The position numbers and the translations under genes were made by a program. Under the pieces are notes generated by a model that ran no database searches, was not told the origin of the DNA, and saw nothing but the letters and a program-made list of their open reading frames with translations. A DNA stretch of 64,000 nt, from contig REEV01000098.1 in assembly GCA_007694915.1 (NCBI GenBank), positions 1 through 64,000 of the forward strand, written 5' to 3'. Each line of letters starts with the position of its first letter. Position 1 is the stretch's first letter. The stretch is from Cyanobium sp. PLM2.Bin73. Its GTDB lineage: Bacteria > Cyanobacteriota > Cyanobacteriia > PCC-6307 > Cyanobiaceae. Below are positions 25,564 to 27,853 of this stretch, one piece after another.

Positions 25564-27741
25564 ATGGCGGACACCGGCGGCAGCACCGATCCCGCTGTGG
25601 CCAGCCAGCAGGCCTGTCTGCTCAAGCTGGCGCCCCACCTGCTCGGCCGCACCCGCCGCGGGGTGGTGGGCAGCAGCCGCTACGCCGAGCGCCTGCGGGA
25701 GGCGGTGCGCCGGGCCGCCGCCGACCCGGAGGCCGGGCCGGTGCTGATCAGCGGCGAACCGGGCCTGGGCAAAGACAACCTGGCCGCCCTGATCCACTTC
25801 GGCAGCCCGCGCCGGCGGCGACTGATGGCCCGCATCGACGCCGCCACCCTGGGCGATGACGGTGCCGCCCTGTTCGGCAGCGGCTCCAGCGGCGGTGATG
25901 GCTCCCTGCTCGACTGCCTCGGTGATGGCGCCCTGCTGATCGACAACCTCGATCGGGCCGATCCCCGCCTGCGGCCCCAGTTGCTGGAGCTGCTGCGCAG
26001 CGGGCGCTGGCGGGCAGCGGGGGCGGAGAGCCCGGAACGGCACTTCAGCGGCCGGCTGTTCTGCACCACCGAGTCGGCCCTGCCGGAGTTCGACGGCTGC
26101 GCCACCGTGATCCGGGTGCCGCCCCTGCGGGTGCGGCGCCAGGATCTGGGCGAATGGCTGCGCTACGGCATCCGCCAGCAGGCGCGCGGGCTGGGCTGGA
26201 GCCGCCCGCCCCAGGTGAGCGAGGCCGTGGTGAAGCGGCTGCAGAGCCACGACTTCCCCGGCAATCTGCGGGAGCTGGAGGGCCTGATCGAGCGGGCCCT
26301 GCGCCAGAGCGCTGCCGACCTGATCGCTCAGCCGAGCACCGATCAGGCCGCCACCCTGCCTGCCACCCTTCCCGATGAGGTGTTCTGGACCGGCTCGCGA
26401 GCGGTCAGGGCGCGCTTCGATCTCTGGCGCTGGAAGCCGCGGCTGCGCTTTGTGATGCGCTCGCCGCGACTGTGGAACGCCCTGCTGTTCGGCCTGGTGA
26501 GCTGGGTGTTCGTGCTGGTGAACCTGTGGCTCTGGCAGGGTCCCCAGGACCGGGCCCACAACGGCGGCCTGAATCTGTTCTGGGCCTGGTGGTGGCCCCT
26601 GATCCTGCTGGGCTATCCGCTGGTGGGGCGGCTGTGGTGCTCCTTCTGCCCGTTCATGGTGTGGGGGGAGATCAGCCAGCGCCTGGTCCGTGCCTGCGGC
26701 TGGCGGCCGCGCCCCTGGCCCCGGGGCGATAGCGACCGCTGGGCGGCACCGCTGCTGGCGGCCGGCTTCGCCCTGATCCTGCTCTGGGAGGAGGTGTGGA
26801 ACCTGGAGAACACCGCCTGGCTGAGCAGTTGTCTGCTGCTGGTGATCACCGCCGGGGCAGTGCTGGGCTCGCTGACCTTCGAGAAGCGCTTCTGGTGCCG
26901 CCATCTCTGCCCGGTGGGGGGCATGAACGGCCTGTTCGCCAAGCTCTCGATCCTGGAACTGCGTGCTGAGGCCGGCACCTGCAGCGGCAGCTGCAGCACC
27001 TACGGCTGCTTCAAGGGCGGGCCGGCGGTGGGGGAGGGGCTGGCCACGGCCGGCTGCCCCCTCGGCACCCATCCGGCCCACCTGGCCGACAACCGCGACT
27101 GTGTGCTCTGCCTCACCTGCGCGGCGGCCTGCCCCCACCGCTCGGTGCAGCTGCGCCTGCGTCCCCCCGCCGCCGACCTGCAGCGGGAGATGGAGCCGCC
27201 GGCCGGCGAGGCCGGGCTGATCCTGGTGCTGGCCGGCGGCATCGCCCTGCATCACTGGCAGCGGCTGCTGGGCTGGTTGCCGCTGGCGCCGGCTTCCCTG
27301 CAGGACGGCCTGCTGCTGCCGCGCCTGGCCATCGGCGCCCTGGCCATGGCGATGCCCAGCCTGCTGTTCCTGCTCAGCCGGCCCCTGCTGGCCGCCCGCC
27401 AGCGGCGCCTGCTGCTCTACGCCCTGCTGCCCCTGCTCTGGGCACTGCTGCTGGCCCGCCATCTGCCCCTGGGCATGGCCGAGGCTGGCCGGGTGCTGAC
27501 GGTGAGCCTGGCGCCGCTTGGACCGGCCGTGCCTGAGCTGCCGGCCTGGAGCGCCGATCCCCACGTGATCGCCTTCTGCCAGAGCGCCGCGGTGCTGCTG
27601 GGGCTGGTGTGGGCGGTGGTGCTGATACGGCGGCTTTGGCCGGCGCCGCGGCTGCAGGTGGCCGGGCTGGGGGTGGCGCTGCTGCTGGCCGCCGGCGGGC
27701 GCTGGCTGGTGGCGGCACCGGCTGCGCTGATGCCGGGATAA
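25564..27741 (+). CDS. Degenerate sigma54-activator-like AAA+ domain fused to a NapH/NosR-type membrane polyferredoxin
   Basis: 725 aa; GEPGLGKDNLA (Walker A), LLIDNLDRADPRLRPQLLELLRSG, DFPGNLRELEGLIERAL; then TM segments with CSFCPFMVWG, CRHLCPVGGMNG, CSGSCSTYGCFKGG, CVLCLTCAAACPHRS. Confidence 0.88.
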   Translation: MADTGGSTDPAVASQQACLLKLAPHLLGRTRRGVVGSSRYAERLREAVRRAAADPEAGPVLISGEPGLGKDNLAALIHFGSPRRRRLMARIDAATLGDDGAALFGSGSSGGDGSLLDCLGDGALLIDNLDRADPRLRPQLLELLRSGRWRAAGAESPERHFSGRLFCTTESALPEFDGCATVIRVPPLRVRRQDLGEWLRYGIRQQARGLGWSRPPQVSEAVVKRLQSHDFPGNLRELEGLIERALRQSAADLIAQPSTDQAATLPATLPDEVFWTGSRAVRARFDLWRWKPRLRFVMRSPRLWNALLFGLVSWVFVLVNLWLWQGPQDRAHNGGLNLFWAWWWPLILLGYPLVGRLWCSFCPFMVWGEISQRLVRACGWRPRPWPRGDSDRWAAPLLAAGFALILLWEEVWNLENTAWLSSCLLLVITAGAVLGSLTFEKRFWCRHLCPVGGMNGLFAKLSILELRAEAGTCSGSCSTYGCFKGGPAVGEGLATAGCPLGTHPAHLADNRDCVLCLTCAAACPHRSVQLRLRPPAADLQREMEPPAGEAGLILVLAGGIALHHWQRLLGWLPLAPASLQDGLLLPRLAIGALAMAMPSLLFLLSRPLLAARQRRLLLYALLPLLWALLLARHLPLGMAEAGRVLTVSLAPLGPAVPELPAWSADPHVIAFCQSAAVLLGLVWAVVLIRRLWPAPRLQVAGLGVALLLAAGGRWLVAAPAALMPG

Positions 27742-27772: not shown

Positions 27773-27853
27773 ATGACCACCGCCCTGCTGATCGCCCTGG
27801 CCGCCTCCCTGGGGCTGATGGCTTACATCATCAAGCGCCTGGAGCAGGCCTAG
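27773..27853 (+). CDS. Candidate 26-aa single-TM microprotein
   Basis: ATG...TAG encodes MTTALLIALAASLGLMAYIIKRLEQA; 31 bp after the polyferredoxin stop; below the ORF-track length cutoff. Confidence 0.4.
   Translation: MTTALLIALAASLGLMAYIIKRLEQA

Follow-up and report, generated by a model that had tools for sequence, protein, structure and literature searches.

What can an AAA+ domain of the type that activates sigma54-dependent transcription do when it is fused to a membrane polyferredoxin, in a phylum where a 2011 survey of 29 cyanobacteria found neither sigma54 nor its activators in any of them (PMC3162934)? The question is posed by a gene of Cyanobium sp. PLM2.Bin73, located in a 64,000-nucleotide stretch of DNA (the window) at positions 25564–27741 of the + strand, where an uninterrupted open reading frame of 725 codons plus stop has relatives in other genomes. 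An NtrC/PspF-type AAA+ domain forms the first third of the protein, and a nine-helix NapH/NosR-type membrane polyferredoxin forms the remainder.

Pfam profiles, alignments and an AlphaFold model were used to delineate the domain order. The model, for which 66 family sequences served as input, has a mean pLDDT of 85.8 and contains nine long predicted helices; it is weak in the ferredoxin segment (pLDDT < 50 at residues 474–510). At the N-terminus, a helix (residues 10–25; 25591–25638) aligns with the linker that follows a cNMP-like domain in longer relatives. The AAA+ core of enhancer-binding-protein type (residues 35–174; 25666–26085) and the lid domain carrying sensor II GNLREL (residues 189–254; 26128–26325) come next, followed by predicted transmembrane helices 1–4 (residues 301–438; 26464–26877) and 5–9 (residues 547–716; 27202–27711). 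An eight-Cys ferredoxin-like segment (26980–27135) is placed between helices 4 and 5, and the module extending to helices 5–9 is also alignable in stand-alone relatives. All features are on the + strand, and the charges of the loops are consistent with an N-terminus and Cys motifs on the cytosolic side.

The original prediction, made from the sequence of this locus, had allowed that the fusion might be an assembly artefact. This is ruled out, as the same fusion recurs in 26 of 40 relatives and in hundreds of genomic stretches. The architecture and the motif losses described below are confirmed. A genome-collection scan returned at least 509 confirmed stretches, and the 80 listed all carry cyanobacterial titles. 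Among 292 genomes sampled across the phylum, strong matches (E < 1e-50) were found in the window's class, the other classes giving short matches only, to the AAA or cNMP parts. Within the window's taxonomic family, the fusion is present in 83 of 201 genomes (67 of the 131 of good quality). Three fusion genes are split into two frames (L013 and L029 in G007; G287:C1:2174894-2176853; G349:C8:7146-9172), either as pseudogenes or through sequencing errors; two of these genomes are single-contig assemblies.

The search of domain databases that the original prediction had proposed matched both an AAA+ profile and Fer4_5/NapH-type profiles. For the AAA+ part, Pfam Sigma54_activat matched residues 35–174 above its cut-off (E = 8.7e-10) and AAA_lid_14 matched residues 189–254 (E = 3.1e-9); a Synechococcus elongatus genome used as a control also has a match to the AAA lid family. 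The same relationship was recovered in a PDB sequence search, which matched the AAA domains of NifA, PspF and NtrC (best 7.9e-18), and in a Foldseek search with the AlphaFold model, which matched the AAA domains of NtrC1/PspF with a TM of about 0.74 on the target as well as NtrX AAA structures. The core and lid therefore resemble those of NtrC, PspF, NifA and NorR by profile, PDB sequence and fold; the fusion protein differs from these activators in having no GAFTGA, Walker B Glu, arginine-finger segment or HTH, in being membrane-anchored and in occurring in a genome without sigma54.

We then counted motif residues across 125 aligned cyanobacterial members of at least 600 aa each. The four motifs quoted in the original prediction are present in the window protein: the P-loop GEPGLGKD (residues 64–71; 25753–25776), ALFGSGSSGGDGSL at the site of the lost GAFTGA loop (residues 102–115; 25867–25908), the Walker B LLIDNL with its catalytic Glu replaced (residues 124–129; 25933–25950) and FPGNLRELEGLIERAL (residues 231–246). 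The P-loop Lys is retained in 125/125 members, preceded by Glu in 98 and by Gly in 21, the window protein being one of the latter, and 122 have Asp at the P-loop Thr/Ser position. Neither GAFTGA nor the Walker B Glu was found in any of the 125, the Walker B Asp is changed to Asn in 88, and the sensor II position is occupied by Arg (62), Lys (28) or Thr (19). No arginine-finger segment FRxDLYYRL was found in a 19-member alignment, and the alignment gap to PspF/NifA falls on FRxDLxxRL; three FRxDL pattern matches among the members are taken as the linker FRVDLL of L024, L025 and L027. Pfam detected no HTH family in the window protein or six relatives, and no output domain (HTH, kinase or receiver) was found in the same set. 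The predicted losses of GAFTGA, of the Walker B Glu, of the arginine-finger segment and of an HTH were thus all recovered, whereas the description of the motifs as eroded does not hold for this lineage, as the substitutions are phylum-wide and conserved. Decay restricted to this species is ruled out because the losses are common to all 125 members, and on the alignment the motif loss is old. Since GEPGL(E/G)KDN is nearly invariant, the P-loop looks rebuilt under selection rather than decayed. With the Gly before the Lys mostly replaced by Glu and the Thr/Ser mostly by Asp, nucleotide binding by most members of subfamily A (defined below) is uncertain.

Searches for sigma54 itself gave a consistent picture. 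No Sigma54_DBD match was detected in the window's own genome (99.99%-complete), where the original prediction had called for an rpoN search, and only two of the 292 phylum genomes exceeded the cut-off, one clearly and the other just crossing it, in agreement with the general lack of RpoN in cyanobacteria that the original prediction had taken as background. The clear match (L149, G160:C1:411956-412339; E = 2.3e-16) could reflect either transfer or contamination. The absence of rpoN, GAFTGA, the catalytic Glu, the arginine-finger segment and an HTH supports the prediction that the protein is not a transcription activator, in particular not a sigma54 activator.

The membrane half was assigned as NapH/NosR-like, as had been predicted, through three lines of evidence. 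Pfam Fer4_5 matched residues 425–461 (E = 3.3e-7; 30.6 bits against a cut-off of 22). The best NCBIfam redox match was of NapH type (residues 352–533, E = 1.3e-9), with 37.6 bits lying far below the equivalog cut-off of 234. Twelve Cys are invariant in the 125 members: C359 and C362 in a membrane-proximal CxxCP (26638–26652), C445 and C449 in a membrane-proximal CxxxCP (26896–26913), and C473, C477, C482, C498, C513, C516, C519 and C523 in the ferredoxin-like segment. The latter eight would leave room for two predicted [4Fe-4S] clusters, and an additional redox site may be formed by the four Cys near the membrane. Conservation is highest in the membrane/ferredoxin part, with a mean majority-residue frequency of 0.80 versus 0.66 for the AAA part. 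Within the window's clade, Ka/Ks ranges from 0.07 to 0.23 for the membrane/ferredoxin part and from 0.10 to 0.54 for the AAA part, being lower for the former in five of six pairs; both halves are under constraint, the membrane/ferredoxin half more so.

A four-helix module with two CX3CP motifs, for which a role in quinol oxidation has been proposed, is common to NapH and NosR (PMC5928378). Given the comparison with this description, the membrane half is most economically read as serving quinone-linked electron transfer. Like the PF12801-type proteins NapH, NosR and RdhC (PceC), the fusion protein has multiple helices and two Cys-Pro motifs at the membrane, and it shares with NapH and NosR the Cys sets for two 4Fe-4S clusters. 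It departs from them in its CxxCP first motif (one CxxxCP and one CxxCP in place of two CxxxCP), an unusual ferredoxin Cys spacing, five further helices and the AAA+ domain in front; no FMN domain was found in it. Stand-alone 4Fe-4S proteins of Deinococcus ficus and haloarchaea contain the same membrane module over ~250 residues, including both Cys-Pro positions, but are without the AAA+ or cNMP-fold parts, and the haloarchaeal ones miss part of the ferredoxin Cys. A sequence search for a solved homologue of the membrane module found none. The Synechocystis ferredoxin Fed9 (slr2059) was rejected as a model-organism homologue, as its published Cys at 84–125, arranged in two CxxCxxCxxxC sets, do not fit the family.

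The N-terminus varies across the family. It is long in 89/91 members outside picocyanobacteria and short in all 34 picocyanobacterial members. In all five long relatives that were profile-scanned, the extension matches cNMP_binding; Pfam found no such domain in the window protein, none of the 34 picocyanobacterial members is long enough to contain it, and tblastn revealed no convincing cNMP-like remnant upstream of the window gene. The Glu and Arg usual in the phosphate-binding cassette are not evident by eye in the cNMP-like domain, which makes cyclic-nucleotide binding by the extension doubtful.

By sequence, the family divides into two subfamilies, a division that is new here: A, which includes the window protein, and B, whose members are 35–37% identical to it. 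Mapping the phylogeny, as the original prediction had suggested, separated the two in a tree of the membrane half, where a branch with an SH-aLRT of 100 has all 10 B rows on the same side. In this tree the picocyanobacterial rows cluster amid the A rows on long branches, a placement in which such branches may join falsely. The P-loops also differ, B having a canonical GxGKT and A the rebuilt form; B could accordingly bind ATP without hydrolysing it.

Gene neighbourhoods distinguish the subfamilies further. A is a stand-alone gene: no neighbour recurs beside it across lineages, and an operon partner for it was rejected on this ground. The window gene itself is flanked by a glutathione-S-transferase-like gene and a PAS-GGDEF gene, both on the opposite strand, and two strong SQR homologues of the window's genome lie on other contigs. 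Cysteine synthase (cysK) occurs within 6 kb of B at 11/15 loci versus 1/89 for A (Fisher p = 7e-11, counting one locus per gene with varying flank lengths; the B loci share descent, so the p-value overstates the evidence), the single A case being a distant homologue 4.3 kb away. In counts that are descriptive, as the neighbour set was picked after viewing the B loci, rhodanese (5/15 versus 0/89), SQR-like flavoproteins (4/15 versus 0/89) and cytochrome bd (3/15 versus 0/89) are also found near B. At one B locus (L210), an SQR homologue matching mitochondrial sulfide:quinone oxidoreductase at 1e-108 lies near the B gene together with cydA, cydB, rhodanese and an ArsR-type regulator; the flavoproteins of L160 and L161 give weak matches to SQR profiles. 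In two plasmid-borne B genes (L157, 4924–7617; L158, 4963–7677), cysteine synthase follows after 9 to 21 bases. Two B genes without cysK (L168, L169) adjoin heterodisulfide-reductase-like genes, another thiol-redox context, identified by a CCG domain in one and otherwise by eye. We infer a sulfur role for B from these neighbourhoods, and any such role of A would be an extrapolation from B. The redox role proposed originally remains reasonable given the membrane module, but the one genomic context that points to a process, sulfide, belongs to the paralogue B and not to A.

Taken together, the fusion family comprises conserved uncharacterised proteins, best read from their sequences as membrane electron-transfer proteins with a non-hydrolysing AAA+ domain. 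In the explanation that we favour, at roughly even confidence, the protein is of the NapH/NosR kind, its AAA+ domain acting as sensor or scaffold, with B serving sulfide and cysteine metabolism and A the same type of redox chemistry. The membrane half would carry electrons to or from a partner protein, exchanging them with a quinone or some other partner on the membrane side by way of the CxxCP and CxxxCP motifs and two cytosolic 4Fe-4S clusters. The cytosolic N-terminal half would be an enhancer-binding AAA+ domain whose residues for sigma54 contact and ATP hydrolysis disappeared long ago. It would have been retained, alongside a cNMP-fold domain in most relatives, as a module without hydrolysis that may sense a nucleotide or other small ligand or provide an oligomerisation scaffold. 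Paralogous subfamily B would work in sulfide and cysteine metabolism, and A probably performs a redox step of the same type but is controlled differently. This reading is favoured by the 12 invariant Cys, the NapH-type match, the high conservation of the membrane part, the stand-alone occurrence of the module in Deinococcus and haloarchaea, the motif loss, the lack of rpoN and the B–cysK association; it is weakened by the lack of a conserved A neighbour, which leaves the process served by A extrapolated from a paralogue of only 35–37% identity to the window protein, by CxxCP in place of CxxxCP, by the lack of a solved homologue and by the weak model of the ferredoxin segment.

Several alternatives were weighed against the same evidence. 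One of them overlaps the favoured explanation and differs in the ligand being named: a nucleotide-gated complex whose electron transfer is switched when the AAA+ domain binds ATP or ADP. The invariant P-loop Lys, the Gly before it in the window protein and the canonical GxGKT of B speak for such gating, as the original prediction had proposed, but the Glu and Asp substitutions make it doubtful for A, and with no Walker B Glu in any member and the arginine-finger segment missing, we consider it rather unlikely. In a redox or sulfur sensor, the Fe-S membrane part would not serve metabolic electron flow; it would convey the state of quinones or thiols to the AAA+/cNMP-fold part, which in turn would signal to a cytosolic partner. 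This would suit N-terminal parts that descend from signalling modules, and two loci at which B lies near SQR, rhodanese and ArsR-type regulators. The lack of an output domain, the missing AAA+ catalytic residues, the altered appearance of the cNMP cassette and the conservation peak in the Fe-S membrane part render this unlikely.

Two further possibilities place the protein among other known families. CcoG presumably belongs to the same superfamily as the membrane module. It is a cupric reductase (PMC8456105). A CcoG-like role for the fusion protein, in reducing metal (Cu) or in redox maturation, is suggested by a haloarchaeal stand-alone relative next to genes for a metal cation transporter and P-type ATPases; CcdA is also nearby. 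That relative is only remotely similar (29% identity across 30% of the query), and the neighbours of a second one differ. Beside A no gene for metal handling recurs, and beside B such genes (an ArsP-type permease) are isolated cases; we regard this role as improbable. Activation of transcription without sigma54, as is thought for the sequence-related VpsR and TyrR, finds some backing in the view that GAFTGA-deviating members are probably sigma54-independent (PMC3162934). VpsR, a regulator of polysaccharide production considered to be such a bEBP relative (PMC3162934), resembles the fusion protein in its bEBP-type AAA+ domain, whose GAFTGA region is altered; unlike VpsR, the fusion protein sits in the membrane with nine predicted helices and has no DNA-binding domain, making this role extremely improbable.

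Returning to the electron-transfer reading, a more specific form of it is a new redox system in which a non-catalytic AAA+ domain controls a quinone-linked polyferredoxin in sulfide, persulfide or thiol metabolism, B as its sulfide-island version and A as its general one; we advance this tentatively, as possible rather than probable. All parts are of known kinds; what is new, as judged from the literature searched, is that they are combined, that the combination is conserved across cyanobacteria and that B is linked to sulfide. No report of this fusion architecture was found in the open-access literature, most subscription journals being outside the scope of the search. In contrast to the reported absence of sigma54 and its activators, an activator-type AAA+ domain persists in a large part of the phylum, without catalytic residues yet well conserved. 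Behind database names that suggest a transcription regulator there is probably a protein that transfers electrons and carries a sensor or scaffold domain; if so, annotations such as 'nitrogen assimilation regulatory protein' and 'cyclic nucleotide-binding', carried by the two plasmid B copies, mislead. The A/B pair would then open an uncharacterised redox protein of oxygenic phototrophs to genetic study and offer a direct prediction about sulfide.

Downstream of the fusion gene, after 31 bases, a 26-aa single-helix open reading frame (MTTALLIALAASLGLMAYIIKRLEQA; window positions 27773–27853, + strand) was observed. At a loose threshold, similar frames occur in 44/61 genomes of the same taxonomic family. 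Its candidacy as a subunit of the fusion system is not supported, as some genomes that lack the fusion gene have it too, and it is probably an independent small membrane protein.
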